From assembly GCA_029265715.1 (NCBI GenBank), contig JAJUGZ010000002.1:1-64000 (forward strand): a stretch of DNA of 64,000 bases, in the 5' to 3' direction. Source of the stretch: Bacteroidota bacterium (GTDB lineage: Bacteria; Bacteroidota; Bacteroidia; Bacteroidales; Prolixibacteraceae). A program made the translations under genes and the position numbers. This document shows, piece by piece, positions 1-19,175 of the stretch. The notes under the pieces are model-generated. The model had not been told where the DNA came from. It did not search any database and saw only the letters and a program-made list of their open reading frames with translations. Position 1 is the stretch's first letter, and every line of letters starts with the position of its first letter.

Positions 1-228
1 GTAAATATTGTTGTTAAAATATTGAAATTTAGGTGTGTACTTATGGAACTCCATGCCATGAAAATTAGCTTCTCTAATAATATTTACATGGCCTTTGGTG
101 CCACCACCATAAATTTTGTTACCGTGGCATGTTCGTTTCATCCGTATAAATTTTCAAAGTTGTTTCTTACAATTTTCGTATCTATTTCTGTTTTTCAAAA
201 TGGTTTTTCAACGAGATGGAATAGCCAT
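1..228 (-). repeat. Dispersed repeat copy A (truncated by window start)
   Basis: Read on the minus strand, this segment starts with ATGGCTATTCCATCTCGTTG at 228 and runs off the window at position 1. It is nearly identical to 18941-19175 and 19217-19306 on the plus strand. It contains the same leader (GAAAATTTATAC plus two bases and ATG) followed by an open frame starting MKRTCHGNKIYGGGTKGHVN, as in copy B. No transposase is visible. It could be a MITE-like element or a mobile leader module. The repeat relationship is seen directly; its nature is inferred. Confidence 0.8.
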
Positions 229-272
229 TTATACATTCTCGGTTTGTATGAGCGATGGCTCTTATGGCTATT
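220..272. repeat. Inverted repeat at the edge of repeat copy A
   Basis: AATAGCCAT (220-228) and ATGGCTATT (264-272) are perfect inverted arms around a 35-base spacer. The same arms flank the junction of copies B and C near 19.2 kb, with an unrelated spacer sequence. They may be element ends or a recombination site. The rest of 273-337 shows nothing recognisable. Confidence 0.6.
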
Positions 273-337
273 TCATTGCGAATTCTTTAGTTGTTTTTAA
301 TTACTTTCGAATATTTGATTACTTAAAGTGTTTTACT

Positions 338-417
338 TACTTTTGGTTAGTCAAAAGTATGATGTAAGGTGAAATAAAACAATAACTTACGTAAAAGTTC
401 AATACTTACCCGTAAGT
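338..417. promoter_or_regulatory. Palindromic sites upstream of the HxlR regulator
   Basis: Two inverted repeats precede the HxlR gene: TACTTTTG-GTTAGT-CAAAAGTA (338-359) and ACTTACCCGTAAGT (404-417). An extra ACTTAC half-site lies at 385-390. HxlR proteins bind as dimers to short palindromes near their own genes, so these are candidate operators, especially 404-417, which sits 25 bases before the start codon. The assignment is inferred from position and symmetry. Confidence 0.5.
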
Positions 418-441
418 TAGAAATGGGAAAATCATCGGGTT

Positions 442-825
442 ATGGATGAAAAAATTTCAAAAAAATATGGAAATCCGGAACTTTGTCCTGTCCGGAATGT
501 GGTTGACCGGATTGGGAACAAGTGGTCGGTGTTGGTGCTGATGATTCTTGAAGATGCGGGGGTATTGAGGTTTAATGAATTATGTGCCTGTATTGGGACC
601 ATTTCTCAGAAAATGCTGGCCGTAACGCTTAAAAACTTAGAAGCCGACGGATTAGTGAAGCGAACGGTTTATCCGCAGGTTCCGCCCAAAGTTGAGTATG
701 AATTAACTGTTCGGGGAAAATCGTTGTTGCCTCATTTGCATGGCTTGGTAAATTGGGCTGCCATCAACATGGACCCGATTAAGGAGTCAAGAGAAATTTT
801 TAGTAGTGCCGTCAATCACATTTAA
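442..825 (+). CDS. HxlR-family winged-helix transcriptional regulator
   Basis: The 127-residue protein has the HxlR layout throughout: an N-terminal CPV motif around residue 15, then the DRIGNKWSVLVLMIL helix, a winged-helix core (residues about 25-100) with LRFNEL and ISQKMLAVTLKNLEADGLVKR, and the wing PPKVEYELTVRGKSL. Family length is usually 100-130 residues. The N-terminal cysteine is the residue that senses redox or electrophile stress in several HxlR members, but the signal here is unknown. It lies alone, convergent with the methyltransferase at 857, so its target may be itself or a gene left of the window. The upstream palindromes are candidate operators. Confidence 0.9.
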   Translation: MDEKISKKYGNPELCPVRNVVDRIGNKWSVLVLMILEDAGVLRFNELCACIGTISQKMLAVTLKNLEADGLVKRTVYPQVPPKVEYELTVRGKSLLPHLHGLVNWAAINMDPIKESREIFSSAVNHI

Positions 826-856
826 CCCGATAATCTTCGGACGGCGTTAATTTTTA

Positions 857-1471
857 TTAAACCTTTTTCCCGGCTAACAGGAACAATGGATATTTTCTTA
901 AGATGCCGTTGTGCTCTTTCCCGAGTTCGAAGAAAATTTTATTAGCTACAATTTCAAATCCGGACATCTGCATTTTTTTGCCCAAATCATGAGGATCAAA
1001 TCCATTATGGCCGTCAAACTCCGGATCGTGGGCATGAAAACTGCCATCTTCGGTAATCAGGTCGGCAATAAAAAGATAACCACCCGGGCGGAGTAGTTCG
1101 TGAAATTTTGCTAGTGCTTTCTCTGGTTCGTAAATGTGGTGAAGGGTCATCAGGGTAAATACAGCATCGTAGTTTCCGGGTAGCTTGTCAGTAAAAATGT
1201 CGGCAAGCAATGGCTTGAAGTTTTCGACTTGGAGAGCCTGGATCTTTTCGTTCAGTACATCAATCATTCCGGCCGAGGTATCAGCCAGCGTGATGTGTTT
1301 AAACGTGTCTTTTAGTTCGAAACTGAGCAGGCCAGTCCCGCAGCCAAATTCAAATCCGCGATTGGCAGCTTCTTGTGGGAGCAAGGCCTTTATCTCGCTG
1401 GCCAAGTCGCGTGATCGTTCGGTTTTTATCGGATCGTTGTCCCAGGTTTTTGCACGTTCGTCAAAGCTCAT
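857..1471 (-). CDS. Class I SAM-dependent methyltransferase
   Basis: This 204-residue protein has the Rossmann-type methyltransferase motifs. Motif I is FEFGCGTGLLS (residues about 41-51). The acidic loop is TLADTSAGMI, followed by the motif II/III stretch AVFTLMTLHHI and LRPGGYLFIADL. This is the UbiE/Methyltransf_11 type, which acts on small molecules. The substrate cannot be inferred from sequence. It is the last gene of a same-strand group with the GNAT enzyme and the T9SS protein. It is convergent with the HxlR gene, from which it is separated by about 30 bases. Confidence 0.88.
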   Translation of the reverse strand: MSFDERAKTWDNDPIKTERSRDLASEIKALLPQEAANRGFEFGCGTGLLSFELKDTFKHITLADTSAGMIDVLNEKIQALQVENFKPLLADIFTDKLPGNYDAVFTLMTLHHIYEPEKALAKFHELLRPGGYLFIADLITEDGSFHAHDPEFDGHNGFDPHDLGKKMQMSGFEIVANKIFFELGKEHNGILRKYPLFLLAGKKV

Positions 1472-1499
1472 TTGTCGGTAATTTTATGCGTGATAGAAG

Positions 1500-1955
1500 T
1501 TATCTGGATAATTCTTTTTGGAAGCAAACGCTATTCGGCAGGTCTTTGTAAGGACCATAATTTTCAATGACCTGATATCCAAATCCGGAATATAAACCAA
1601 TGGCTTCGGGTTGTCTGAGTCCTGTTTCCAGCACGGCTATCTTGTTGCCCAGTTCGGCCGCCCATTGTTCAAGTTCTGCCAGAACCAGTTTTGAAATACC
1701 TTGGCCCCGAAATGCTGGACAAACATACATTCGCTTGATTTCGACAGAGCCGTTGTCGAAGGGTTTGAAACATCCGCATCCGGCTGGTTGGTCATCCAGA
1801 TAAGCAACTACCGCTGTTTGGATAAAGGCAACGTTGTTATGAGCGGAATAAGCTTCCTGGCCTTCACAATTTCGGCTCCATAAATCCGCATCTAACAGTC
1901 TGATTAATGATTCGAAGTCAGGATGATTGGTTGTCGTGCGTAAAATACGTACCAT
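1500..1955 (-). CDS. GNAT-family N-acetyltransferase
   Basis: The protein of about 151 residues shows the GNAT acetyl-CoA-binding core: VEIKRMYVCPAFRGQGISKLVLAELE (motif A with the R/QxxGxG/A-like RGQGIS), then LETGLRQPEAIGLYSGFGYQ (motif B). The frame extends seven codons upstream to 1976, but MVRILRTTTNHPDF at 1955 looks like the usual family N-terminus, so I prefer that start. The substrate is unknown. It sits between the methyltransferase gene (28 bases away) and the small T9SS protein. Confidence 0.85.
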   Translation of the reverse strand: MVRILRTTTNHPDFESLIRLLDADLWSRNCEGQEAYSAHNNVAFIQTAVVAYLDDQPAGCGCFKPFDNGSVEIKRMYVCPAFRGQGISKLVLAELEQWAAELGNKIAVLETGLRQPEAIGLYSGFGYQVIENYGPYKDLPNSVCFQKELSR

Positions 1956-1987
1956 GATAATATTGGGAAGTGGCAAATAGCAGGAGA

Positions 1988-2362
1988 TTAGTTCTTTTTT
2001 ATGATTTGGGTCCGCTGCACTCCGTCTTTAGTGATCTTCAGGATATATACCCCGGTTTTGTAACTGGTCAGGTCTAACTTAAATTTTTGGTTGCCGGAAG
2101 AAACATAGTAAGGCTCCCATTTCTTTATTTCGGTACCCAGAATGTTGAAAAGGCTGCATGTAATGTATCCTGAATCTTTTGTGGTTATCTCGATATTTAA
2201 CACGTCTTTTACCGGGTTGGGAAAAACTTTGTCAATTTTCATGGGCTGCTCTTCAATTCCCATTCCAAAATCAGCCGTGTTCTGCTGGGAATTGCCTGCC
2301 ATTTGTGCCTGAGCCAGGGCTGTAAAGACGATTAAACATATCAGTGTAAAAAAATACTTCAT
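1988..2362 (-). CDS. Small secreted protein with type A T9SS sorting domain
   Basis: This 124-residue protein is a signal peptide (about 1-19, ending ALAQA), a short linker, and a C-terminal type IX secretion sorting domain from about residue 45. The domain has the usual marks: KVFPNPVKDVLNIEI, LFNILGTEIKKW, and a GVYILKI...IIKKN end. There is almost no cargo domain, which is unusual because these sorting domains normally tail large surface enzymes. It may be a stand-alone surface peptide or a remnant of a larger protein. Confidence 0.85.
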   Translation of the reverse strand: MKYFFTLICLIVFTALAQAQMAGNSQQNTADFGMGIEEQPMKIDKVFPNPVKDVLNIEITTKDSGYITCSLFNILGTEIKKWEPYYVSSGNQKFKLDLTSYKTGVYILKITKDGVQRTQIIKKN

Positions 2363-2442
2363 TGCATCAGCGATTCATTCTTTGTATTCAATGACAAATA
2401 TGATACCAAAAAGTTGTAAAAAAGGTTACAAAAAACAAAAAA

Positions 2443-2464
2443 AGCCTGACAATGATGACAGGCT
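2443..2464 (-). terminator. Intrinsic terminator after the ferredoxin gene
   Basis: On the minus strand AGCCTG (2464-2459) pairs with CAGGCT (2448-2443), followed by a T-rich tract (TTTTTTTG). It lies 25 bases past the ferredoxin stop codon. Confidence 0.75.
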
Positions 2465-2488
2465 CTTTAAATCTTATGTCGACCGGAA

Positions 2489-2659
2489 TTATTCTGCAAC
2501 AGAAATTGCACTAACCGGGCAAACTTCGGCACATGAGCCACAATCTGTGCAAAGGTCAGCATCAATTTTGTAGATATCGCCTTCAGAGATAGCTTCTACC
2601 GGACATTCATCAATGCAAGTACCGCAAGCAATGCACTCATCAGAAATTTTGTAAGCCAT
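2489..2659 (-). CDS. 2x[4Fe-4S] ferredoxin
   Basis: This 56-residue protein has two CxxCxxCxxxCP clusters, CIACGTCIDECP and CTDCGSCAEVCP, which is the clostridial-type dicluster ferredoxin used as a low-potential electron carrier. The frame is open further upstream, but MAYKISDECIACG at 2659 is the normal family start. A -7 promoter box at 2690-2697 leaves no room for a longer protein. It is monocistronic, with its own terminator. Confidence 0.95.
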   Translation of the reverse strand: MAYKISDECIACGTCIDECPVEAISEGDIYKIDADLCTDCGSCAEVCPVSAISVAE

Positions 2660-2689
2660 AACTTTTGTTTTTTTGGTTTTATATGTCGA

Positions 2690-2718
2690 CAAATGTACAA
2701 AGTTTGGTAAATATTCAA
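2690..2718 (-). promoter_or_regulatory. Ferredoxin promoter (Bacteroidetes type)
   Basis: On the minus strand TTG (2718-2716) is followed after 18 bases by TACATTTG (2697-2690), matching the TTG / TAnnTTTG consensus. The predicted start of transcription is about 25 bases before the ferredoxin ATG. Confidence 0.6.
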
Positions 2719-2865
2719 AAAAATGACCTGTTATTTTTAGCTGAATTAATAAACACAATACATTGTTTAAAAAGCAATGTTAAATAATAGTAATCAACAA
2801 AATATGTGATTTGTACTTTTAAAATTAAATCAATGATAATTAATAGTTTAATGGAAATTAGCAGA

Positions 2866-2897
2866 TTCTCCGAAACGGATGGAGAAATAGTTTCTCC
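2866..2897. other. Hairpins downstream of the AraC gene
   Basis: TTCTCC (2866-2871) pairs with GGAGAA (2881-2886), and alternatively GGAGAAA-TAG-TTTCTCC (2881-2897) forms a tight hairpin. The two are mutually exclusive. This may be the 3' end of the AraC transcript, but there is no T tract. Nothing else is seen in 2719-2949. Confidence 0.4.
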
Positions 2898-2949
2898 GTT
2901 GTAGCACTTTGCGAAATCTCCCTGTGTACAGACCTGATGCTACTATATT

Positions 2950-3840
2950 TCAGGTGTTTGCAATGTGGTATTTTCGGTTGCGCATGACAAACCGGTTACG
3001 GTACCGGCGTGGTGACATACCCATCTTTTTTGCAAAATCTTTACTGAAATAATACGGGTCGGCGTAGCCAATGCGGAAAGCAATCTCTTTCACTTTCATG
3101 CGGGTTTGGTCGAGGTATTCGCAGGCGCGCATAATTCGCAGGTGATTGAAATACTGAATGGGTGGGTAGCCGGTGGCAGCCTTAAATGTTGTTGTAAAGT
3201 AAGTAGGCGAGTAGCCAGCTTCGGCTGCCAGTTGTTCCAGCGTAAGTGTTTTGGCGAGATTGCTTTCCATGTAGCTGATGGCTTTCCGGACAACCGGGTT
3301 TTGTTCTTCGGCAATGTCGTCGCTGGTTTTGCAGGCATAAACGAAGGTGGCCAGCAAATGTCCGAAACAGAAGCTCACATATTCCAGGTTTTCGTTGTGA
3401 AAGCCGTTGCCTAAGTTGTTAAAGATTTCGTCGAACAGCATCAGCCGGTTGGCCACCATATTGTTCACCGATGGGAGCAGGTCGCGCACAACGGTAAAAT
3501 CCTTGCTCAAGATCTGGCTTTTGCTGCCGTTAAAATGGCAGGTGTAAAAATTAGCGCCCTGTTTATCCGACAAATACGAAAACCCGAAACCGGCCGGAAT
3601 GATAAAAAACTGGTTTTGCCTGACCGGGATCTGGTCGCCGGCAATCGAAACAAACCCGTCGCCTTTGTAGCAATAGGCCAGCATGTGGTCGGCCAGCGGT
3701 TCCGGATAAGTCCAGGTTTCATTGATTGGGATCAGTAAGTTGGCAATTTCGGTGAGGTATAAATCGCGGGTAATCGGGTTGTTTTTTTGCTCCCCGACAA
3801 TCGTTGGCGGGATAATGAAGTGTCTTTTCCGGATCAGCAT
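2950..3840 (-). CDS. AraC-family transcriptional regulator
   Basis: The 296-residue protein has an N-terminal cupin-like sensing domain (about 1-160; HMLAYCYKGDGFVSIAG, IPAGFGFSYL) and a C-terminal AraC double helix-turn-helix (about 185-285). The two recognition regions are LEQLAAEAGYSPTYFTTTFKAATG and VKEIAFRIGYADPYYFSKDFAKKMGMSPRRYR. This architecture is typical of sugar or small-metabolite sensing regulators. It is divergent from the corrinoid methyltransferase operon at 4060, with a 13-bp inverted repeat between, so it very likely controls that operon. The ligand is unknown. Confidence 0.93.
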   Translation of the reverse strand: MLIRKRHFIIPPTIVGEQKNNPITRDLYLTEIANLLIPINETWTYPEPLADHMLAYCYKGDGFVSIAGDQIPVRQNQFFIIPAGFGFSYLSDKQGANFYTCHFNGSKSQILSKDFTVVRDLLPSVNNMVANRLMLFDEIFNNLGNGFHNENLEYVSFCFGHLLATFVYACKTSDDIAEEQNPVVRKAISYMESNLAKTLTLEQLAAEAGYSPTYFTTTFKAATGYPPIQYFNHLRIMRACEYLDQTRMKVKEIAFRIGYADPYYFSKDFAKKMGMSPRRYRNRFVMRNRKYHIANT

Positions 3841-3896
3841 GGCCTGGCAATTTCAGAATTCAGTGTTTTGAACATGGAAGATTGGATATTTGATAT

Positions 3897-3937
3897 TCAA
3901 TGTCGTTTAACCCACAACTTTATCTAAACGACATTGA
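3897..3937. promoter_or_regulatory. 13-bp inverted repeat, candidate AraC operator
   Basis: TCAATGTCGTTTA (3897-3909) and TAAACGACATTGA (3925-3937) are perfect inverted arms around a 15-base spacer. They lie between the divergent AraC gene and the corrinoid operon. Position and symmetry suggest the binding site of the AraC protein. It could also be transcribed as a hairpin. Confidence 0.65.
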
Positions 3938-4024
3938 TTTGGTATTAGTTATTTAGCCTTAAATAAAGTAATAATTTCCATCTTTTTCAAATAAAATACT
4001 ATTTTTAAGCAAAGGTATCGTTGG

Positions 4025-4032
4025 TAGCTTTG
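4025..4032 (+). promoter_or_regulatory. -7 box of the corrinoid methyltransferase operon
   Basis: TAGCTTTG matches TAnnTTTG and lies 27 bases before the ATG at 4060. The -33 region is T-rich without a clear TTG, which fits a promoter that needs an activator such as the divergent AraC protein. Confidence 0.55.
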
Positions 4033-4059
4033 TAAAAAACTGACAATAAAACTTTTAAT

Positions 4060-4728
4060 ATGAGCGAACTGCTAACCCAAATTGCCGAATGCATCGAGTT
4101 TGGCAAAATAAATAAGGTGGCGCCTTTCCCACCGCAAATGAAAGGGCAGGACGGGGCCGATGAACTAACAGCCAGGGCGATAGCTGAAGGTGTTGCTGTT
4201 CAGGATATTCTGACCAAAGGACTGATGGCGGGAATGGAAAAAGTAGGGATCAAATTCCGTGAGAACAAGATTTTTGTTCCACAGGTTTTGATGTCGGCCA
4301 AAGCAATGAGTACGGCCATGATGCACCTGAAACCATTTTTTGCCTCCGGGGAAGCCCGGCAAAAAGGGACCTTTATTATTGGAACCGTGTTGGGCGACCT
4401 GCACGATATTGGCAAGAACCTGGTCGCTATGATGGTTGAAGGCAACGGGTATAACGTGGTTGATCTGGGGACCGATGTGCCCGCCGCTAAATTTATTGCG
4501 GCGTTGGAAGAGTACCCGGGCGCGGTGATTGGCTTATCGGCTTTGCTTACTACCACCATGACCAACATGGATTCAATAACCCGTGAAATCAAAAAGTTAA
4601 AACCCGAGACTGTGGTAGCCATTGGTGGAGCGCCTGTAAATCAGGAATTTTGCGAGAAGATTGGGGCCGATTATTATTCTCCCGACCCGCAGGGCGTTGT
4701 TGAATTCCTGAACCGAAGAATAGCTTAA
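4060..4728 (+). CDS. Corrinoid (B12-binding) methyl-carrier protein
   Basis: This 222-residue protein matches the MtaC/MtbC/MtvC type. It has an N-terminal four-helix cap (about 1-95; MEKVGIKFRENKIFVPQVLMSAKAM is typical) and a C-terminal Rossmann cobalamin domain. The axial-ligand motif DLHDIGKN is present, with His115 expected to coordinate cobalt from below, followed by GLSALLTTTM and GGAPVN. It would carry a methyl group on Co between a substrate methyltransferase and an acceptor methyltransferase in the cytoplasm. It is the first gene of a four-gene operon, 11 bases ahead of the methyltransferase. The substrate is not shown by sequence. Confidence 0.93.
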   Translation: MSELLTQIAECIEFGKINKVAPFPPQMKGQDGADELTARAIAEGVAVQDILTKGLMAGMEKVGIKFRENKIFVPQVLMSAKAMSTAMMHLKPFFASGEARQKGTFIIGTVLGDLHDIGKNLVAMMVEGNGYNVVDLGTDVPAAKFIAALEEYPGAVIGLSALLTTTMTNMDSITREIKKLKPETVVAIGGAPVNQEFCEKIGADYYSPDPQGVVEFLNRRIA

Positions 4729-4739
4729 AGTACAGATAA

Positions 4740-6095
4740 ATGCAGGGGGTGAAATTGTTAGAGAAGGCTTTCCGGCTTCAGCCGGTTGAGCGGGTGCCGT
4801 GGGTTCCGTTTGTGGGTGTTCACGGTGGTTTTTTGTTGGGAGTTGATGCGGAGGAGTACCTGAGATCGGGCGACCTGATGGTTGAGGGGATCAGCAAAGC
4901 GATTGAACTGTACCGCCCGGATGGTATCCCGGTGGCATTCGACCTTCAGATTGAGGCTGAAATTCTGGGCTGTAAACTGAACTGGTCGAAGGAGAACCCT
5001 CCGGCTGTTGTTTCGCATCCGTTGTCCGAAGGCGTGAAGCTGTCAGATTTAAAGATGCTGACCGAAAATTCAGGACGTATTCCAGAAGTAGTCAAGGCGG
5101 CAAAATCGTTGCGGGCCAGATATCCGGACATTGCTTTGTATGGCCTGATTACCGGACCGTTTACACTGGCTCTGCACTTGCTGGGCACCGAAATTTTTAT
5201 GAAGCTTTTTGAAGATCCGGATTCTGTTTTCGAACTGATGGATTTCTGCGCCGAAGTTGGGATAAAGCATGCCGAAATATTGATGAACGCCGGTTGCGAT
5301 GTGATTGCCGTGGTCGACCCGATGACCAGCCAGATTGACCCCCTGTCGTTCGAAACGTTTGTTTCGCCCTATGTTTCGCGGATTTTTGAGTCTGTTAGAA
5401 AGAACGGGAAGTTCAGTTCATTTTTTGTTTGCGGTCATGCCCGGCAGAACATCGAGGCCATGTGCGATTGCCGCCCCGACAATGTTTCGATTGATGAGAA
5501 CATTCCGCTGGAATTCGTGAAGGAAATTGCCTTGCAAAAGCAAATTAGTTTTGGGGGCAATATGAAACTGACCAGTGTGTTGTTGCTGGGCAACGAAACC
5601 GATTCGAAAAAAGAAGCTATTTCTTGTCTCGATGCAGGCGGGAAAACCGGTTTCGTGCTGGCCCCCGGCTGCGATCTCCCGATGGATACGCCGGTTGCCA
5701 ACCTGAAAGCTGTAACTGATCTGGTTTACGATGAATACATTCAGCAGGTAACCCGCGAACTAAAGCACACCTCATCGATCCAGCCGCTCGATTTGGACGG
5801 GCATTGGAGTGCCGATAAAGTTATTGTTGACATTATCACGCTCGATTCGGCTTCGTGCGCGCCGTGCCAGTACATGGTTGAGGCTGTCAGACAGGCTTCG
5901 GCTGAGTTTGGCAGTAAGGTGGTTGTTAACGAGCATAAAATCAAAGATATCGACGGAATCCGGATGATGATGGCTTTGGGGGTTCAGAACGTGCCGACCA
6001 CCTGCATTAATGGCAAGGTAACTTTTATCAGCCAGATTCCGCCTAAAAGTGAGATTACCAAAGCGATTCAGGAATCATTGAGTTTGATAAAATGA
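4740..6095 (+). CDS. MtaA/URO-D-family corrinoid methyltransferase fused to a thioredoxin domain
   Basis: The 451-residue protein has a uroporphyrinogen-decarboxylase-like barrel (about 1-335) followed by a thioredoxin-fold domain (about 360-451) with CAPC at 373-376 and the cis-Pro stretch NVPTT. Family members such as MtaA, CmuA and MtvB transfer methyl groups to or from corrinoid proteins using Zn held by HxC...C. Here Cys231 (FFVCGH) and Cys311 (APGCDLP) remain, but residue 229 is Phe where His is expected, and a His sits at 233. The plain URO-D reaction is unlikely because all partners are corrinoid proteins. The gene overlaps the CobW gene by four bases (ATGA). The methyl donor and acceptor are unknown. 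Confidence 0.85.
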   Translation: MQGVKLLEKAFRLQPVERVPWVPFVGVHGGFLLGVDAEEYLRSGDLMVEGISKAIELYRPDGIPVAFDLQIEAEILGCKLNWSKENPPAVVSHPLSEGVKLSDLKMLTENSGRIPEVVKAAKSLRARYPDIALYGLITGPFTLALHLLGTEIFMKLFEDPDSVFELMDFCAEVGIKHAEILMNAGCDVIAVVDPMTSQIDPLSFETFVSPYVSRIFESVRKNGKFSSFFVCGHARQNIEAMCDCRPDNVSIDENIPLEFVKEIALQKQISFGGNMKLTSVLLLGNETDSKKEAISCLDAGGKTGFVLAPGCDLPMDTPVANLKAVTDLVYDEYIQQVTRELKHTSSIQPLDLDGHWSADKVIVDIITLDSASCAPCQYMVEAVRQASAEFGSKVVVNEHKIKDIDGIRMMMALGVQNVPTTCINGKVTFISQIPPKSEITKAIQESLSLIK

Positions 6096-7003
6096 GTGTC
6101 GGGCTGCACTTGGTTACCGGTTTTTTAGGAAGCGGGAAAACTACATTCCTGAAGAATTACCTGAAAGCATACGGAGGACAACGAAAAATTGCAATCATCC
6201 AGAACGAGTTTTCGCAGGTTAATATCGACGGGAACGAATTAAAATCGGCGGGCGGTAATGCCGCAGGCTTCGAGCTGTTGGAAATTAACAACGGCTCGGT
6301 TTTTTGCGTTTGCCTGTTGGGCAGCTTTATCGATTCGCTTGCCGTTTTCACCGACCAGGTAAAGCCCGATGTGTTGGTAATGGAGGCTTCAGGGATGTCT
6401 GATCCGATCAGTCTGGGGCAGATATTTCAGTCGGAAAAGCTGCGTGGAAAAGTTTATCTGGAATATACCTGGTGTATCGTTGATGCACTGAATTTCGACC
6501 GGGTGAAAGCTTTGCGAAACCGGTTGGAACATCAGATCAGGGTGGCCGATACGGTGGTAATTAATAAGCTCGACCTGGTCGAGGGAAATGACAGCCCGCT
6601 CGGGGAAGAAATCCGGAGGATTAATCCGTTTGCTCACGTTGTGGAAACGTCGTTTGCCCGCGTTGACTTTGAAATGAAGAAATTGCCGTTCAAAGTGTTC
6701 CGGCTCGAAGAAAGTACTGAGAGTTGCCGGCCTGACCTGGAATCGGTTGTGGTAAAAACCAATCTGGAAATTAGTCCGGTGAAACTGGATGAATATATAT
6801 TGAAGGTGAAAGACGATTTAATCCGGATGAAAGGTTATATCAATTTACCGGGGCGGAAAAAAGTGATGCTGCAAAGCACGTTTGGGAAATTCACCGTCGA
6901 AGAGGTTGAATGGTTCACCGGACCAACCGAATTTACCGGCATTGGAGAGATTAACGAAAAGAATAAATATCAATCTTTGTTCGAAGAATATTGTAACCCA
7001 TGA
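6092..7003 (+). CDS. CobW/G3E-family GTPase
   Basis: This 303-residue protein has the G3E GTPase marks: Walker A GFLGSGKT (10-17), a switch stretch with FCVC (Cys72, Cys74) at the place of the usual CxCC metal motif, VMEASGMSDP, and NKLD for guanine binding. The C-terminal CobW_C-like part is diverged. G3E proteins load metals or cofactors into enzymes; MeaB, a related G3E protein, protects a B12 enzyme. Here it overlaps both neighbours by four bases, inside a corrinoid methyltransferase operon. A role as chaperone for the Zn site or the corrinoid protein is a reasonable inference. Confidence 0.88.
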   Translation: MSVGLHLVTGFLGSGKTTFLKNYLKAYGGQRKIAIIQNEFSQVNIDGNELKSAGGNAAGFELLEINNGSVFCVCLLGSFIDSLAVFTDQVKPDVLVMEASGMSDPISLGQIFQSEKLRGKVYLEYTWCIVDALNFDRVKALRNRLEHQIRVADTVVINKLDLVEGNDSPLGEEIRRINPFAHVVETSFARVDFEMKKLPFKVFRLEESTESCRPDLESVVVKTNLEISPVKLDEYILKVKDDLIRMKGYINLPGRKKVMLQSTFGKFTVEEVEWFTGPTEFTGIGEINEKNKYQSLFEEYCNP

Positions 7004-7704
7004 TAAAAGAGTTCAGTTTTCGGTTCGATGAACTGGTTCTGGATTTGCCATTACTGGAACAATCGCTGGGGTTTGGCGAAGGCCCGTTGCCCGAGCCAAT
7101 TGATGAGTATTTGGCCGAGGCCTTGGCGTTTGCAGTCGATTTGCCAGATATTCGCTGTGCGTATCGGCTTGTTGATTTGGACGAGCCGGTTCACAGGAGC
7201 CATAAAATTGTGGCCGAAGGAATCGAATTTCATGTGGGGCATACGGTTCGGCATGAACTGAAAAAATCGGAACGCCTGGCATTTTTTATTTGTACGGCCG
7301 GGGCTGTAATCAGCGAACGATCGAAAGCGTTGCTCCTTGACGGCGACCCGGTGCTGGGGTATGTATATGACCTGGTGGGTTCGTTTGTCGCCGAATCGGC
7401 CGGCGATAAGATGCAGGAGATTTTACTGGAGCAGGTGTCGTCATCAGGCGAGAAAATAACGAACCGGTATAGTCCCGGCTACTGCCAGTGGTCGGTTTCC
7501 GAGCAGCACAAACTTTTTTCATTGTTCCCCGATCGTTGCTGTGGGGTGAGCCTCACACCCTCGGCCCTGATGCACCCGGTGAAGTCGATCAGCGGTGTGA
7601 TCGGGGTAGGGAAGGAGGTGAAATTCAGGGAATATCGTTGCGCCGTATGTTCAAGCACCGATTGTGTTTATCGCCAGATCCATCAGCGAAGTGTGATGGC
7701 ATAA
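7000..7704 (+). CDS. MetH-activation-domain-like protein (corrinoid reactivation)
   Basis: The 234-residue protein resembles the stand-alone vitamin B12-dependent methionine synthase activation domain. It has the RYSPGYCQWSVSEQ stretch, then CCGVSLTPSALMHPVKSISGVIG, the part that binds SAM in MetH. It ends with a CAVCSSTDC cluster (Cys214, 217, 222) that could hold a metal or Fe-S centre. The expected role is reductive methylation or reactivation of the corrinoid protein when Co(I) is oxidised to Co(II). It overlaps the CobW gene (ATGA) and is the last gene of the operon. It is convergent with the sensor kinase, 11 bases away. Confidence 0.85.
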   Translation: MIKEFSFRFDELVLDLPLLEQSLGFGEGPLPEPIDEYLAEALAFAVDLPDIRCAYRLVDLDEPVHRSHKIVAEGIEFHVGHTVRHELKKSERLAFFICTAGAVISERSKALLLDGDPVLGYVYDLVGSFVAESAGDKMQEILLEQVSSSGEKITNRYSPGYCQWSVSEQHKLFSLFPDRCCGVSLTPSALMHPVKSISGVIGVGKEVKFREYRCAVCSSTDCVYRQIHQRSVMA

Positions 7705-7715
7705 CCGTTTGGGGG

Positions 7716-10547
7716 TTAGTTTAACGGCAGGTAAAACGAGAAGCGGCTGCCTTTGCCAACCTCAGATTCGAGCATGATCTTGCCCTCCATTAATTCAACT
7801 AAGTTTTTGGCGATAGAAAGCCCCAGGCCGGTTCCGCCGTAAACCCGGGACAATGATTCTTCGGCCTGCCTGAACCGTTCAAAAATTTTGGTTTGAGACT
7901 GGGGGCTGATCCCGATCCCGGTATCGGCTACAAAAAACCAGATTTTATGATCGGATATTTCGGAAATCCCAAATTCGATAGCTCCGGTTTCGGTAAATTT
8001 GATTGAATTGCTGAGCAAGTTCATAAGAACCTGGTTTAGCCTGACTTTATCGGTGTTCAGATAAACCGGGTTTCCTGGTCGTAACAGTTTTAATTCGATA
8101 TGTTCTTTCCCCAGTTCATCCAGTTTTTTCCGGAATATCGTATGAAGTTCGTCTAAGAGCGGGTCTATGCAGGTTTTACTTTTATAGATCTTAAGTTGGC
8201 CTGTTTCCAGTTTCGATACATCGAGAATGTCGTTTATAATATGCAACAGGCTTTCGGCGCTCCGGTTGATAATGTTGGCATATTCGGCCCGCAATTCGCT
8301 GGTCGTGTCTTCTTCCATCGATAAGATGTTGGTAAAGCCCAGGATGGCATTTAGCGGCGTGCGGATTTCGTGGCTCATATTAGCCAGGAATGCCGATTTC
8401 AGACGGTCGCTTTCCTCTGCTTCTTCTTTGGCAAGCCGGAGTTCGGCGATGATCTTTTTCTTTTCGGTAATATCCTGGTAAATTGCTAAAAAGTGTTTTT
8501 CCCCGTTCCAGTTTATCATTTTTCGGAAAACCTGGACACACCGGATATCGCCAGCCTTGTTTACAATTTCGGTCTCGTATTCTGCCGGGACACTCTCTCC
8601 TTTTTTCCTTTTTTCGCGACGTATTTTGTGTTGTTCCAGACTTTCGGGGGTGAAGCGTTTTTCATCCGGAGTATTTAAGAACTCTTCTAACCCGGTGTAT
8701 CCGTAAATTGCCAGTAATGCTTCATTAACATAGAGCGTTTTCCCTTCGGGCGATACGATACGCATTCCGAGAGGCGATTCGTCCATCGTAGCCTTAAAAT
8801 TTTCGGTTACCTGGAGCAGCGCCGCTTCTGTTTCCTTGCGCGAGGTTATGTCGGTAATTGTCCCGATGTAACCAATAACTTCGCCGCTTGTAGTGATTTC
8901 GGGCACGGCCTCGCCCAAGACCCAGGTAATGCTGCCGTCGGGTTTTAAAAAGCGGTACTCGGCAACTGATTTTTCTGAGTTACCGGTTGCCTTGTCCCAG
9001 CTTTTTTTTACATCTAACTTATCGTCGGGGTGCAGGGCTTTCATCCATCCGTAGCCGATAGCCTGGTCGTAGCTCATTCCGCTTAATCGTTTCCAGCTCG
9101 GGTTCACATAGGTTGTGTACCCGTCGGCCCGGGTCTGGGAAATGCCCACCGGCGAATTTTCGGCCAGGTTATGGAACAGCCGTTCTTTTTCCTGCAGTTC
9201 TTCTTCGGCCAATTTGTCGTTGGTATAATCGTGGGCAATGGCCATGATTTCGTGAATATTCCCATCGCCGGACGAAAGCGGGATGAATGAAATATCCAGG
9301 TAGGTTGGCGTTTGCTGGTTTTGCCGGATACAAACGTCCAGTTTTTGGGGCATTCCGGTTTGACGGGCCTTTTGTAATAATTCCAGGTATTTTTCAAACT
9401 CAGGGGCATTCCAGAATTCTTCGGGCGAATGGCCGATCATTTCCTGAATTGTTTTTCCATTTTTACTCAGCAGCGACTCGTTTACAAACTGGATTTTCAA
9501 ATCGAGGTTGTAGATTGTAATCATGTCGGGCACACTGTTGACAGCCCGTTTAAACCGTTCCCGGCTTTCCTGTACTTGCCGGTGTAGCAGCCGTTCGGCA
9601 GTCTGGTCGCGAAAAACCAGCACGACCCCGTCAATATCGCCGTTGGTGTTTTTAATGGGAGCCCCGCTGTCGGCAATCGGAATTTCCTGCCCTTGTTTGT
9701 TAATCAGGAGAGTGTGGTTGGCTAATCCGCAGATAATTCCTTCGCGGAGTACTTTTTTTACCGGGCTTTCGCTTTTTTGCCTGCTTTCTTCCTGGATGAT
9801 TTGAAAGATTTCTTCAATTGGGCGGCCTGAGGCTTCTTGTTCTGTGTAGCCGGTTAATTGTTCGGCAATGGGGTTTAAATAGGTTATTTCTCCTGATTTG
9901 TCGGTTGTGATTACAGCATCGCCAATGCTGTGCAGGGTCGTCCGGTAGCGTATTTCGCTTTCGCGGATGGCAGCTTCTCCGAGGATGCGCAAGGTTTCAT
10001 TTTTCATCAGGAGCCCCATAACGGTTGTTGCAATGGGAAATATAGCACCAACAGGGAGCCAGATATTTTTTATCACGCTTAGGCCGGTTGGCCATGGCAA
10101 CAAAAGCTGGCACAACAGCATGGCAGCGCTGCTGAGCAAACCCATGCATAGAAAAGCAGGAATGCCGATTGTTTCGGGTTTGTTGTTAAACCGGCGCCGA
10201 AAAAAAAGGCCCACCAATGCTGTAATTGCGATGGTGGCAACGCCGGCGTAAACACCCGGTCCATCCAGGTAAAGCCGGTATGATGCGGCAAATATGGCTG
10301 AAATAAGAACCACTGTCCCTCCTCCAAAAACGCCGGCCAGGGTCATCACAATCGAACGGCCGTCGTAAATAATGCCGGGGGTGTAGTTAAAAGGCATAAG
10401 CATACCGCCTATGGCGATGCCGCCAAATAAAATGCCACCGATCAGTTTATGAATAAGCAAGACCGATTCTCTTTTTCGCACCCAAAAGCTGTACATGATG
10501 GTCAGTGTAATTAATAAGGACGAATTTTGAAGCAGATCGGTAATCAT
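7716..10547 (-). CDS. Multi-PAS membrane sensor histidine kinase
   Basis: The 943-residue protein begins with a 5TM LytS-type membrane sensor (about 1-182; NYTPGIIYDGRSIVMTLAGVFGG is diagnostic). Four PAS domains follow (about 197-325, 328-450, 455-580, 580-705), then HisKA with SHEIRTPLNAILGF and HATPase_c with NLLSNSIKF, DTGIG and GGTGLGLSI. It ends at the ATPase domain, so there is no receiver or AraC output and it is not a hybrid two-component system. No response regulator lies nearby. I chose the start at 10547 because a promoter lies at 10592-10621. A longer frame reaches 10721 but would include that promoter. Confidence 0.92.
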   Translation of the reverse strand: MITDLLQNSSLLITLTIMYSFWVRKRESVLLIHKLIGGILFGGIAIGGMLMPFNYTPGIIYDGRSIVMTLAGVFGGGTVVLISAIFAASYRLYLDGPGVYAGVATIAITALVGLFFRRRFNNKPETIGIPAFLCMGLLSSAAMLLCQLLLPWPTGLSVIKNIWLPVGAIFPIATTVMGLLMKNETLRILGEAAIRESEIRYRTTLHSIGDAVITTDKSGEITYLNPIAEQLTGYTEQEASGRPIEEIFQIIQEESRQKSESPVKKVLREGIICGLANHTLLINKQGQEIPIADSGAPIKNTNGDIDGVVLVFRDQTAERLLHRQVQESRERFKRAVNSVPDMITIYNLDLKIQFVNESLLSKNGKTIQEMIGHSPEEFWNAPEFEKYLELLQKARQTGMPQKLDVCIRQNQQTPTYLDISFIPLSSGDGNIHEIMAIAHDYTNDKLAEEELQEKERLFHNLAENSPVGISQTRADGYTTYVNPSWKRLSGMSYDQAIGYGWMKALHPDDKLDVKKSWDKATGNSEKSVAEYRFLKPDGSITWVLGEAVPEITTSGEVIGYIGTITDITSRKETEAALLQVTENFKATMDESPLGMRIVSPEGKTLYVNEALLAIYGYTGLEEFLNTPDEKRFTPESLEQHKIRREKRKKGESVPAEYETEIVNKAGDIRCVQVFRKMINWNGEKHFLAIYQDITEKKKIIAELRLAKEEAEESDRLKSAFLANMSHEIRTPLNAILGFTNILSMEEDTTSELRAEYANIINRSAESLLHIINDILDVSKLETGQLKIYKSKTCIDPLLDELHTIFRKKLDELGKEHIELKLLRPGNPVYLNTDKVRLNQVLMNLLSNSIKFTETGAIEFGISEISDHKIWFFVADTGIGISPQSQTKIFERFRQAEESLSRVYGGTGLGLSIAKNLVELMEGKIMLESEVGKGSRFSFYLPLN

Positions 10548-10591
10548 ATTGCGATAAATCAAGGTGTAATAAAATGGTAGTTTTATGTTCT

Positions 10592-10621
10592 GCAAACTAA
10601 AAATAAAAATTGGGGAATCAA
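10592..10621 (-). promoter_or_regulatory. Promoter of the sensor kinase
   Basis: On the minus strand TTG (10621-10619), a 19-base spacer, and TTAGTTTG (10599-10592), one mismatch from TAnnTTTG. It lies 45 bases before the chosen start codon at 10547. Confidence 0.45.
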
Positions 10622-10713
10622 AATTTTTATCACAGGGTTCATTGCTTCGTATAAAAACAACGGGATGTATTTCTGAAAAAAAGTCGTCATTGAAAATATT
10701 AATATTGTGTCGG

Positions 10714-10743
10714 TTGTACACAATTGTAAAAATAGCATATTTG
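10714..10743 (+). promoter_or_regulatory. Promoter of the ECF sigma factor gene
   Basis: TTG (10714-10716), a 19-base spacer, and CATATTTG (10736-10743), one mismatch from the consensus -7 box. It is 28 bases before the ATG. Confidence 0.5.
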
Positions 10744-10771
10744 CAATTCTGAGATTTGTTGCGGTTTTAAC

Positions 10772-11383
10772 ATGATAATCACACAACCTGACTTTGGCGA
10801 GTTTTTCTTTCATCGTTTTAAAAGCGGCGATGAACTTGCATTTGAACGGATTTTCAAATCAGGTTACAGGCAGATTGTTGGTTTTTGCGACCAGTTTATT
10901 AACGATCACGATAAAGCCCAAAGCTTGGCGCAGGAAGCGTTTATAAACCTTTGGCTGAACCGGGAAAAAGTTGAAACCGTCAACGGCATCAAATCATTCT
11001 TATTTACCTATGCCCGGTCTGGTTGCCTGAATTACCTCCGCCACAAAAAAGTGGCCAATAAATATCAGGATAAACTGCTAAATACCAAAGAGGCTGATAT
11101 AAACCGGGAAGTCTTGGAGTCATTCGACTTCCATTCGATTGAGGTTACCGAGTTGGAGGAGATTATACAGCGATCGATTAACGAGTTGCCCGATAAATGC
11201 CGCGAAGTTTTTGTTATGAGCCGGTTTGGCAACAAGCGGAACAAAGAAATTGCCGAAGAATTGGGAATCACAGAAAAAGCGGTCGAAGCGAATATAACCC
11301 GGGCAATTAAAACGTTAAAGTCTTCTTTGTCAGACTATTTTCCAATGTTGCTGGTTCAGCTGATCATGCAGTACCTTACCTGA
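10772..11383 (+). CDS. ECF RNA polymerase sigma factor, PUL type
   Basis: This 203-residue sigma factor has region 2 (about 18-90; DHDKAQSLAQEAFINLWLNRE and IKSFLFTYARSGCLNYLRHKK) and region 4 (about 130-185; INELPDKCREVFVMSRFGNKRNKEIAEELGITEKAVEANITRAIKTLK). It is the Bacteroidetes-specific ECF type that works with a FecR-like anti-sigma and a TonB receptor carrying an STN domain. All three are found directly downstream in that order, so the target is most likely the SusC/SusD operon at 12658. It is divergent from the sensor kinase. Confidence 0.94.
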   Translation: MIITQPDFGEFFFHRFKSGDELAFERIFKSGYRQIVGFCDQFINDHDKAQSLAQEAFINLWLNREKVETVNGIKSFLFTYARSGCLNYLRHKKVANKYQDKLLNTKEADINREVLESFDFHSIEVTELEEIIQRSINELPDKCREVFVMSRFGNKRNKEIAEELGITEKAVEANITRAIKTLKSSLSDYFPMLLVQLIMQYLT

Positions 11384-11477
11384 TGACCCGATAGGCGGTA
11401 AAAAAAATCACATTTTTTCAAAGAATCGATATGGGGATGGCGCCAGAATGCGTGTACTCATATTAGAACACGAAAAA

Positions 11478-12461
11478 ATGGATTACTCACTCATCAATAA
11501 ATATTTGTCGGGGAAAGCTTCGGAAGTCGAGGTGAAGCAGGTTTTTGACTGGATTGATGCTGCTCCGGAAAACAGGGACGAATTTATCCGCTACAAACAG
11601 ATTTGGGCCCTGACTGCCCAATCAACCGACAACCCGGTAAAAGCCTGGTCTGAAATATTGGTCGATCAGATCCAGGGGAAAAGCAAGGTTAAAAAGTTGT
11701 TGCGGGTTGTCGGCAATGCAGCTGCCGTTGTGCTTGTTTTTGGACTGGGAATGTCTGTCCGGTATTTTGTCCCTGGCAAATCACCGGTTTTGTTTTCGTA
11801 TATGGCCAGTACAAAGGTTGAAGTTCCCCCGGGTCAGATGTCAAATGTTGTTTTGCCCGATGGTACAACGGTTCAGTTAAATTCCGGAAGTAAGTTGGTT
11901 TACTCCGGATCATACAACAACGGGCAGCGCCAGGTGCAACTCGAAGGAGAGGCTTTTTTCGATGTTGCCAAAGATGCGGAGCACCCGTTTGTCATCCAAA
12001 CCCGTTTACTCGATTTTAAGGTTTATGGCACTTCGTTCAATGTTGAAGCCTATCCGGAAGAAAAAGAAGTTAATACGACATTGGTCGAGGGCAGCCTGGG
12101 CGTGCTGGCCAAAAGCGGTAAAGAGTTAACAAAGTTGTTCCCCGGAGAGAATGTTTTGTATCAGGAAGACTCGAAAAGTATTGTTATTAGCAAGGTCGAT
12201 CCTGGCATGTATACTTCCTGGAAAGAGGGAATTATTACCTTCAGGAGTGAACCGCTGGACGAAATTGCCCGGAAAATTGAGCGTTGGTATAATGTGGAAA
12301 TTGTAATTCAAAACCCTCAGGTTGCAAACGAGCGTTACATGTTAACGGTAATGAAATATAAACCAATCGACCAGATTCTGGAAGTATTAAAGATTACCTC
12401 CGGATTGAACTATCGGATTGAACACCGGATTGACAAGCCTGCACGGATCTATTTGGAATAA
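11478..12461 (+). CDS. FecR-family anti-sigma factor
   Basis: The protein of about 327 residues has a cytoplasmic sigma-binding N-terminus (MDYSLINKYLSGKASEVEVKQVFDWI), one membrane helix around residues 78-96 (NAAAVVLVFGLGMSVRYFV) and a periplasmic FecR domain (VEVPPGQMSNVVLPDGTTV, VQLEGEAFFDVAKDAEHPF, VYGTSFNVEAY, TLVEGSL). A C-terminal STN-like DUF4974 region follows. It should hold the ECF sigma factor at the membrane until the SusC receptor signals substrate. An upstream ATG exists at 11448, but MDYSLI at 11478 is the normal family start. Confidence 0.92.
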   Translation: MDYSLINKYLSGKASEVEVKQVFDWIDAAPENRDEFIRYKQIWALTAQSTDNPVKAWSEILVDQIQGKSKVKKLLRVVGNAAAVVLVFGLGMSVRYFVPGKSPVLFSYMASTKVEVPPGQMSNVVLPDGTTVQLNSGSKLVYSGSYNNGQRQVQLEGEAFFDVAKDAEHPFVIQTRLLDFKVYGTSFNVEAYPEEKEVNTTLVEGSLGVLAKSGKELTKLFPGENVLYQEDSKSIVISKVDPGMYTSWKEGIITFRSEPLDEIARKIERWYNVEIVIQNPQVANERYMLTVMKYKPIDQILEVLKITSGLNYRIEHRIDKPARIYLE

Positions 12462-12536
12462 TATACGGCACAGTGAATAAACAAAAAACCAAACGATAAC
12501 GACTTATGGAAAAACAAAACTCAGGCTAAAAACAAT

Positions 12537-12592
12537 CAGACCGAAAATACTGGACATATTTCCGGTCTGCCTTCAGGTTGATTATCTCAACC
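12537..12592 (+). promoter_or_regulatory. Paired hairpins in the susC leader
   Basis: CAGACCG (12537-12543) pairs with CGGTCTG (12563-12569), with most of the inner bases also pairing. Next, GGTTGA (12576-12581) pairs with TCAACC (12587-12592). The two stems stand in the 196-base gap before susC and may be transcript structures that control the polar step from fecR to susC. Confidence 0.5.
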
Positions 12593-12657
12593 AACCCATG
12601 TGATGAAAATAAAGCCTTCTGGACAAAGGCACTTATTAACTAAAACACGTCAAATTT

Positions 12658-18866: not shown

Positions 18867-18940
18867 ACTTAACAACAATAGGGAGCTGATGAAACGAACC
18901 ATAGCTAAATTATGCATAGCGACTTGATTCTTTGGGCAGG

Positions 18941-19175
18941 TTCCATGCGTTGGATTTCAGATTGAAAAACTAACGCAGTTACGGAAATTGTACGAACCAA
19001 CATTGAAAATTTATACTTATGAAACGAACATGCCATGGTAACAAAATTTATGGTGGTGGCACCAAAGGCCATGTAAATATTAGTAGAGAAGCTAACTTTC
19101 AAGGCATGGAGTTCCATAAGTACACACCTAAATTTCAATATTTTAACAACAATATTTGCTTGAGAAATAGCCATG
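18941..19175 (+). repeat. Dispersed repeat copy B
   Basis: The copy starts at TTCCATGCGTTGG, which resembles the start of copy D, and continues GAAAATTTATAC, two bases, ATGAAACGAAC. It then matches repeat copy A to the end (AATAGCCAT at 19166-19174). Copies A and B differ at only a handful of bases across the small open frame. Half of the differences seen are synonymous for that frame. Confidence 0.8.

Follow-up and report, generated by a model that had tools for sequence, protein, structure and literature searches.

What methyl donor and what methyl acceptor are connected by a four-gene corrinoid operon in a genome of the Bacteroidota? The operon lies at positions 4060-7704 of the window, by which we mean the whole 64,000-nucleotide stretch analysed here (contig JAJUGZ010000002.1, assembly GCA_029265715.1, Prolixibacteraceae). 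An earlier note, made from the sequence alone, had described four genes there, and all four plus-strand open reading frames (ORFs) were confirmed. Algal and plant sugars that carry methyl ethers are difficult to digest, and the anaerobic enzymes that strip methyl groups from sugars have been reported as unknown; the system described below names candidate genes for this step. We put at about even the chance that the operon is the shared core of a corrinoid system in which donor proteins of the URO-D family bring in methyl groups from O-methyl sugars and a thiol receives them. Demethylation of O-methyl sugars is suggested by genomic association; the substrate, the direction of transfer, the acceptor and the role of a fused thioredoxin domain are inferred.

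The methyltransferase and its partners in the operon

In the product of the second gene, Pfam recognizes a URO-D domain (residues 6-330, 204 bits) followed by a Thioredoxin_3 domain (residues 370-443, 37 bits), the latter absent from the earlier note; we call this protein Mta-Trx. Four MtaA-type NCBIfam models scored 137-183 bits and the hemE model 80 bits, all under their curated cut-offs (303 bits for hemE). The best match among solved sequences is the MtaA structure 4ay7 (106 bits). The predicted structure of Mta-Trx (predicted local distance difference test, pLDDT, 92; predicted template modelling score, pTM, 0.88) superimposed on 4ay7 with a Z score of 42.0 and on the best HemE with 36.6, placing the URO-D fold nearer to MtaA. 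In a tree of 96 URO-D proteins, whose deeper branching is unsure and in which long branches meet, those of MtaA and HemE among them, nine thioredoxin-fused enzymes formed one clade and six HemE proteins another, each with 100/100 support. The earlier note had chosen clustering with HemE as the outcome that would speak against its view; Mta-Trx stands in a clade apart. The genome has a separate HemE (320 bits, contig C31), which by eye lies among heme-like genes.

The zinc ligands of MtaA, which we take to be His, Cys and Cys, map in an alignment to 4ay7 to Phe229, Cys231 and Cys311 of Mta-Trx; Phe thus stands in place of the His of the site found in MtaA-type (SCMT) enzymes. All three residues, and likewise the CxxC cysteines of the thioredoxin domain, Cys373 and Cys376, are invariant in the Mta-Trx sequences compared (79/79 for each), that of the window included. 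The His-Cys-Cys ligand set agrees with the available part of PMC10418091, according to which S-methyltransferases carry His-Cys-Cys, and O-methyltransferases swap one or both Cys for carboxylates or non-ligands. By this rule Mta-Trx, with both Cys kept, would fall on the thiol side. Models of thioredoxin-like seleno- and ArsE-type proteins matched its thioredoxin domain weakly.

Relatives of Mta-Trx also occur in a longer form of ~539 aa, with an extra C-terminal domain that by eye resembles a second thioredoxin-type domain; the protein of the window is of the short form. A gene for a homocysteine S-methyltransferase (SMT; identified by its PF02574 match in locus L032) was found in 26 of 37 long-form loci and in none of the 41 called short, a count in which L045, with an ORF beginning at a contig edge, is placed with the long form and in which two called short, L029 (cut by a contig end) and L082 (a short ORF), are of unsure form. 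The sole PF02574 match of the genome under study lies inside a 1226-aa MetH frame.

The other three proteins complete the unit. The cobalt-ligand motif of the corrinoid carrier, D113-x-H115-x-x-G118, was found in 86 of 86 aligned corrinoid proteins, and the closest solved sequence is 1y80 (164 bits). The usual motif of the CobW family is C-x-C-C. In the third gene product this is changed to S-x-F-C-x-C (C72 in 77/77 aligned sequences, C74 in 74/77), with a Cys at position 69 in three sequences; the CobW protein of L131 has C-x-C-C. For the fourth gene, Met_synt_B12 matched in the C-terminal part only (31 bits against a cut-off of 25). Its model (pLDDT 93) shows over residues 1-204 the fold of the MetH reactivation domain, with Z scores of 21.5 to 1j6r and about 16-18 to MetH reactivation domains, and the S-adenosylmethionine (AdoMet) motif R-Y-S-P-G-Y is mostly kept (45-49 of 49 sequences per position); fold and motif are both those of a MetH-type reactivation domain. 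A tail overlooked in the earlier note, C214-x2-C217-x4-C222, is invariant in 49/49 sequences; it lies outside the part aligned to 1j6r, at lower model confidence, and is a possible iron-sulfur or metal hand-over site. Pfam and fold comparisons thus bear out the earlier view of a corrinoid methyl-transfer unit in Bacteroidota, made up of a carrier, an MtaA-type methyltransferase, a CobW protein and a MetH-type reactivator.

This four-gene unit is far from a chance arrangement: of 394 candidate stretches from named genomes, 366 code for a relative of Mta-Trx, and the gene order recurs. In the best 80 of the 366, which were kept, record titles name mostly Bacteroidota, and also Planctomycetes, Calditrichota, KSB1, Sumerlaeota, Neiella and Lysobacterales. 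In the 49 loci whose flanks reach at least 2.5 kb on the upstream and 3.5 kb on the downstream side (flanked loci), CobW was present in 49, the corrinoid protein in 46 and the reactivator in 33; all four genes occur in 33. Of these loci 25 have a donor-cluster URO-D, 16 have SMT and 11 have an activator of RACo type. Among 61 near genomes, the one under study included, 17 have Mta-Trx. A full-length copy, 39% identical, occurs in a 25.7-kb record of the gut Bacillota member Subdoligranulum (L236, OY725850.1), annotated as a plasmid. The stretch 119-15275 of this record carries, with Mta-Trx, a radical-SAM-like protein, CobW, AraC, a second URO-D and a sugar-type ABC transporter; genes identified on the record include those for a solute-binding protein, two permeases, a Gfo/Idh oxidoreductase and an MGH1-like glycosidase domain. 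The start of the record holds a 20-residue match to the end of a corrinoid protein. In a search for viral copies, neither of two pattern matches was a relative.

Candidate donors and their sugar context

Where might the methyl groups come from? In many relatives a donor-type URO-D lies in cis with the operon. The genome under study (99.94% complete, 200 contigs) encodes three URO-Ds beyond HemE and Mta-Trx: U155, on contig C155, which immediately follows a GH106 rhamnosidase and precedes a GH78 rhamnosidase by two genes; U157, which adjoins a GH2-type protein; and U160, which adjoins an AraC gene. In a U160-like neighbourhood of one relative (L141), genes for DUF6807, ThuA and Gfo/Idh/MocA proteins are found. 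The earlier note had supposed that a missing acceptor enzyme might be encoded elsewhere; what lies elsewhere in the genome is a set of candidate donors, two of the three beside glycosidases.

The presence of such proteins follows that of the carrier. We counted as extra URO-Ds all PF01208 matches minus one HemE (by E-value) and minus Mta-Trx. Among the near genomes, all 34 that were corrinoid-positive (a match of at least 59% identity) had an extra URO-D, with a median of five, against 3 of the 27 without (Fisher p = 5e-14); these three genomes are 66, 84 and 70% complete. With a threshold of 1e-40, genome G049 (45%) becomes a positive without an extra URO-D, and the counts become 34/35 and 3/26. 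In a sample across the phylum (threshold 1e-40, own genome excluded), an extra URO-D was present in 16 of 17 corrinoid-positive genomes and in 5 of 180 others (p = 3e-18), genomes without a match, 15 of them unlisted, being scored as zero, and G216, in which the better of two matches was 4.5e-81, as having an extra; shared ancestry inflates both associations, and these p-values are too small. At 13 of the 17 phylum-sample loci, SMT, the reactivator, a URO-D or MtaB is no more than about three genes away from the corrinoid gene; none of these was near it in L219, L222, L226 and L234.

Many of the candidate donors differ from thiol-active enzymes at the metal site. Of 104 URO-D proteins surveyed, those of MtaA-like type in L131-L133 and L135 retain H-x-C...C, operon-linked URO-Ds and many donor-type ones in sugar loci have H-x-C...H, four related ones (L143, L149, L166 and L170, three of these loci with GH106) have H-x-D...H, and U160 has H-x-D...G. 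Many donors can be placed on the oxygen side because a metal-site Cys is replaced, following the rule taken from PMC10418091. The altered sites point to oxygen substrates; replacement of Cys by His goes beyond what the available text of that paper names and would be our extension of the rule. Assignment to the donor types followed the best BLAST hit against a small number of queries, and several of these proteins sit on long branches; the donor-type URO-D of L053 had no match among Protein Data Bank sequences at E 0.01.

Several donor loci carry genes for sugar breakdown. Searches with the genome's own GH78 and GH106 rhamnosidases (tblastn) found rhamnosidases in 6 of 27 donor loci, none of which lies within three genes of a close corrinoid homologue, and in none of 20 arbitrary regions or 20 HemE/MetH regions (6/27 against 0/40, p = 0.003); the genome's own C155 locus, the source of the queries, is among the six, and the arbitrary regions, from ten related genomes, were picked by hand prior to viewing, with no random generator. 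Pfam assigned 8 GH78-type and 5 GH106 proteins among 128 donor neighbours; both families fell outside the 25 commonest among 114 proteins of arbitrary regions, which is at most 2 of 114. One donor clade, chosen from the URO-D tree after its neighbours were known, is accompanied by galactokinase in six loci and by cytochrome P450 in four others (10/15, against 0 of 65 other loci). In L040, L059, L063 and L064, the end of the operon is close to genes for P450, ferredoxin, ferredoxin reductase and a zinc alcohol dehydrogenase, a set which, in the available part of PMC10033563, carries out oxidative demethylation of 6-O-methyl-D-galactose from porphyran. In Sunxiuqinia indica (L006), the closest named relative, a 314-aa ORF and then RhaM, an aldo-keto reductase, an amidohydrolase and a zinc dehydrogenase come after the operon in like orientation, and SSF transporter and Gfo/Idh genes lie ahead of it; the donor locus L151 has RhaT-like and RhaM genes.

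A few further observations concern these families. U160-type URO-Ds (58-87% identical to the genome's own) occur in L139, L141, L144, L147, L150, L155, L159, L160, L163, L164, L167, L168 and L171; most of these loci have AraC to one side, with ORFs of ~415, 305 and 459 aa to the other; in L141 the three are the DUF6807, ThuA and Gfo/Idh/MocA genes. In L138 (6651-10140, minus strand) a URO-D with H-x-C...N lies between two ORFs, one of them the exo-N-acetylmuramidase NamZ; the neighbour set holds two NamZ, and URO-Ds related to that of L138 occur in L157, L165 and L169. A possible substrate of the L138 protein is the lactyl ether in muramic acid. In L161 and L162 (genome G012), URO-Ds accompany distant corrinoid proteins (20-27%) beside large ORFs, and the neighbour set that includes these loci contains PAS/histidine-kinase and DUF1638 proteins.

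Proposed route and competing explanations

On which side of the carrier does Mta-Trx act? The genomes of L131-L133 and L135, in which a His-Cys-Cys MtaA-like enzyme lies beside the carrier, have no Mta-Trx, as if the two enzymes replaced one another; in L118-L122, L124 and L125 the carrier is accompanied by SMT, again in genomes without Mta-Trx. Because an MtaA-like enzyme or SMT accompanies the carrier where Mta-Trx is absent, Mta-Trx is placed on the acceptor side. The earlier note had held that the acceptor-side enzyme was missing from the operon; this is probably the reverse of the case, Mta-Trx being nearest to the acceptor-side MtaA, with both Cys, and a donor-side enzyme being what is absent in cis. 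The earlier interpretation is thus partly supported.

Based on these findings, we propose a plausible route. Donor URO-Ds, encoded elsewhere in this genome, would methylate the Co(I) corrinoid of the carrier from an O-methyl sugar, which may be methyl-rhamnose, methyl-galactose or a similar sugar depending on the locus. Mta-Trx would then transfer the methyl group from the methyl-corrinoid to a thiol, its fused CxxC either holding the metal site reduced or providing the acceptor thiol. Sulfide, homocysteine and the enzyme's own thioredoxin cysteine would all fit as acceptors in the short-form operon; SMT, where added in many relatives, would let the methyl groups end in methionine. As judged from its fold, the fourth gene product would reactivate oxidized corrinoid with AdoMet, and CobW probably supplies metal. 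A narrower version, that polysaccharide-degrading Bacteroidota and at least one gut Bacillota record hold a modular, oxygen-independent sugar demethylation in which URO-D demethylases specific to each locus share a single carrier and Mta-Trx methylates its own thioredoxin Cys, the residue completing the two-Cys metal site where His was lost, seems to us unlikely. If the general route is true, it would be a B12-dependent one-carbon route in Bacteroidota that ties B12 supply to polysaccharide use, with methyl groups flowing from seaweed or pectin sugars to methionine or volatile thiols.

Besides the inflation of the co-occurrence by shared ancestry, several findings weigh against transfer from sugars to a thiol. 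The operon of the window contains no donor URO-D, and 7 of the 49 flanked loci (including the close relatives L006, L010 and L011) lack donor-cluster URO-D, SMT and RACo alike; the reactivator is absent from 16 of the 49. U157 keeps H-x-C...C, the thiol-type pattern. Zinc-free corrinoid methyltransferases exist, a Moorella O-demethylase included (PMC13222342, in its available part), and the metal-site rule is therefore not strict. No rhamnosidase was found in 21 of the 27 donor loci, and other donor-type URO-Ds adjoin histidine kinases or NamZ. The carrier lies beside MtaB, the methanol:corrinoid methyltransferase, in seven loci of relatives (L127, L128, L130-L133 and L136; in L131, MtaB at 5852-7225 on the minus strand, 537 bits), and therefore also serves methanol in some species. 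Finally, according to PMC12316285, the surroundings of porphyran loci in gut bacteria yielded no candidate gene, a caution that any such system of gut porphyran degraders does not adjoin the porphyran locus.

The methanol link also belongs to a different explanation, in which the operon is an O-demethylase core for methyl groups derived from lignin or pectin, with methoxylated aromatics or plant-wall methanol as donors. MtaB matches in 12 of the 61 near genomes, its place beside the carrier in the seven loci above and its position in L036 (6617-7990, plus strand) between the carrier and Mta-Trx all fit this, as do the esterases and GH3 proteins of a polysaccharide locus downstream in the window (described below), some of which are possibly feruloyl esterases. 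We nonetheless consider it a weak contender. The genome under study has no MtaB match and none to the MttB family for methylamines or betaine, and donors of both types were rejected for it. It has no standalone pterin-binding methyltransferase either: of two Pterin_bind matches in total, one lies in the 1226-aa MetH frame and one in a 314-aa frame taken as FolP, and a folate acceptor reached through a dedicated enzyme was rejected for this genome, whereas known bacterial O-demethylases use tetrahydrofolate (PMC3727330, in its available part). The P450, galactokinase and rhamnosidase links, moreover, point to sugars. If Mta-Trx ran in the opposite direction, the operon might instead salvage methyl-sulfur or methyl-selenium compounds as in type 1 mlp clusters, the MtaA-like enzyme demethylating a methyl-thiol or methyl-selenol onto the corrinoid. 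The two Cys of the metal site and the seleno- and ArsE-type matches of the thioredoxin domain argue for this, and the accessible text of PMC10418091 supports such a role for MtaA-like proteins. Against it, SelD lies under the cut-off in the genome under study (65.9 bits versus 125), on which ground selenium salvage was set aside, and is present in just 2 of 17 genomes with Mta-Trx; the operon has a single MtaA-like gene where type 1 clusters have at least two and a Ram/RACE activator, and the genome has no RACo match; and the partners, several of them in sugar loci, are donor-type URO-Ds whose metal sites are altered. Salvage therefore appears improbable to us. A true or diverged uroporphyrinogen decarboxylase, in an operon for heme or B12 metabolism, would share the URO-D fold and suit the CobW name, but has next to no probability beside the two fully supported clades, the higher MtaA-type scores and the separate HemE; HemE identity of the second gene was ruled out by the tree and the profiles.

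None of the nearest published systems matches this one in acceptor, activator and donors alike. Mta-Trx is like the methanogen coenzyme M methyltransferases MtaA and MtbA in its URO-D fold, its best sequence and structure matches and its two metal-site Cys, and unlike them in its Phe for His, its fused thioredoxin, its non-methanogen host and its scores under the NCBIfam cut-offs. Type 1 mlp clusters (Kountz and Balskus, PMC10418091) likewise combine an MtaA-like protein with a corrinoid protein and no folate methyltransferase, but they consist of at least two Mlps, a corrinoid protein and Ram/RACE in one direction; the operon has one MtaA-like gene, a MetH-type reactivator for Ram/RACE, CobW and the thioredoxin fusion, and no SelD. 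The available text of that paper gave no match to 'Bacteroid', 'sugar', 'polysaccharide' or 'CobW'. Three-component corrinoid O-demethylases (Cdm, OdmB/MtvB type; PMC13222342) share with the route proposed here a URO-D-fold donor, for which this genome has three candidates, a corrinoid protein and a second methyltransferase; there the acceptor is tetrahydrofolate, served by a dedicated methyltransferase (MTII), whereas here the second enzyme is MtaA-like and no dedicated tetrahydrofolate enzyme was found in the genome. MtgBCD of Ruegeria (PMC12478193) resembles the SMT form in joining substrate demethylation to methionine synthesis by a corrinoid module, but its substrate is glycine betaine, its hosts are aerobic marine bacteria and a URO-D donor is not named in the available text. 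P450 demethylation of 6-O-methyl-D-galactose (PMC10033563), whose gene set adjoins the operon in the four loci above, would serve the same end but depends on oxygen and yields formaldehyde; no oxygen and no formaldehyde would be involved in the corrinoid route. Other donors and acceptors are described in PMC7857596 and PMC12478193, and the available text of PMC9768040 names thioredoxin solely with glycine/betaine/sarcosine reductase genes. Our literature search, whose coverage left most subscription papers and bioRxiv-only preprints outside, turned up no report of corrinoid-dependent sugar demethylation or of an MtaA-thioredoxin fusion.

Control region and surroundings of the operon

The positions of the operon genes and of the elements ahead of them are collected in Table 1. 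The earlier note had called the genes tightly overlapping; this holds for the second and third junctions, each a 4-base overlap, but not for the first, an 11-base gap. The AraC control gene that it had described proved real. A second AraC cluster, distinct from the divergent one, occurs in 16 of 80 loci.

Table 1 Features of the operon and its control region in the window
Feature	Position	Strand	Basis or remark
AraC-type regulator, divergent from the operon	2950-3840	-	HTH_18 + HTH_AraC (Pfam); orthologue cluster in 23/80 loci
Possible operator, 13-bp perfect inverted repeat	3897-3937 (arms 3897-3909, 3925-3937)		Shuffles
TAnnTTTG box	4025-4032	+	35 nt upstream of corrinoid start
Corrinoid (B12-binding) methyl carrier, 222 aa	4060-4728	+	B12-binding + B12-binding_2 (Pfam)
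Mta-Trx, MtaA-type URO-D methyltransferase with thioredoxin domain, 451 aa	4740-6095	+	Pfam, fold match
CobW-type GTPase, presumed metal chaperone, 303 aa	6092-7003	+	cobW 129 bits
Standalone MetH-type reactivation protein with CxxCx4C tail, 234 aa	7000-7704	+	Met_synt_B12 31 bits, fold

The inverted repeat exceeds the longest found in 200 shuffles (10 bp) and is absent from the same place in 22 relatives. The TAnnTTTG box, presumably the -7 box of Bacteroidota promoters, lies at -32 to -45 in 18 of the 22 relatives that have the AraC-corrinoid spacer; judged by sequence, its position fits a single promoter ahead of the first gene. A scan for sigma-70-type promoters was uninformative, with 1 match against 5.0 expected, and an Rfam scan of 2400-12000, the cobalamin riboswitch included, gave nothing at the gathering score.

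Just past the AraC gene, at 2489-2674 on the minus strand, lies a gene for a 61-aa dicluster ferredoxin (FdxA_fam above its cut-off), with a possible role in corrinoid reduction. Downstream of the operon, beyond a histidine kinase on the opposite strand, a polysaccharide locus extends over 10772-36432 (plus strand); it comprises sigma factor, FecR-like, SusC-like and SusD-like genes, judged by eye, and four Esterase-family, two COesterase and two GH3 proteins. The ORFs at 1-300 (plus strand) and 18905-19174 (minus strand) have a common peptide around VVKILKFRCVLMELHA...FGATTINFVT, resembling a repeated element.

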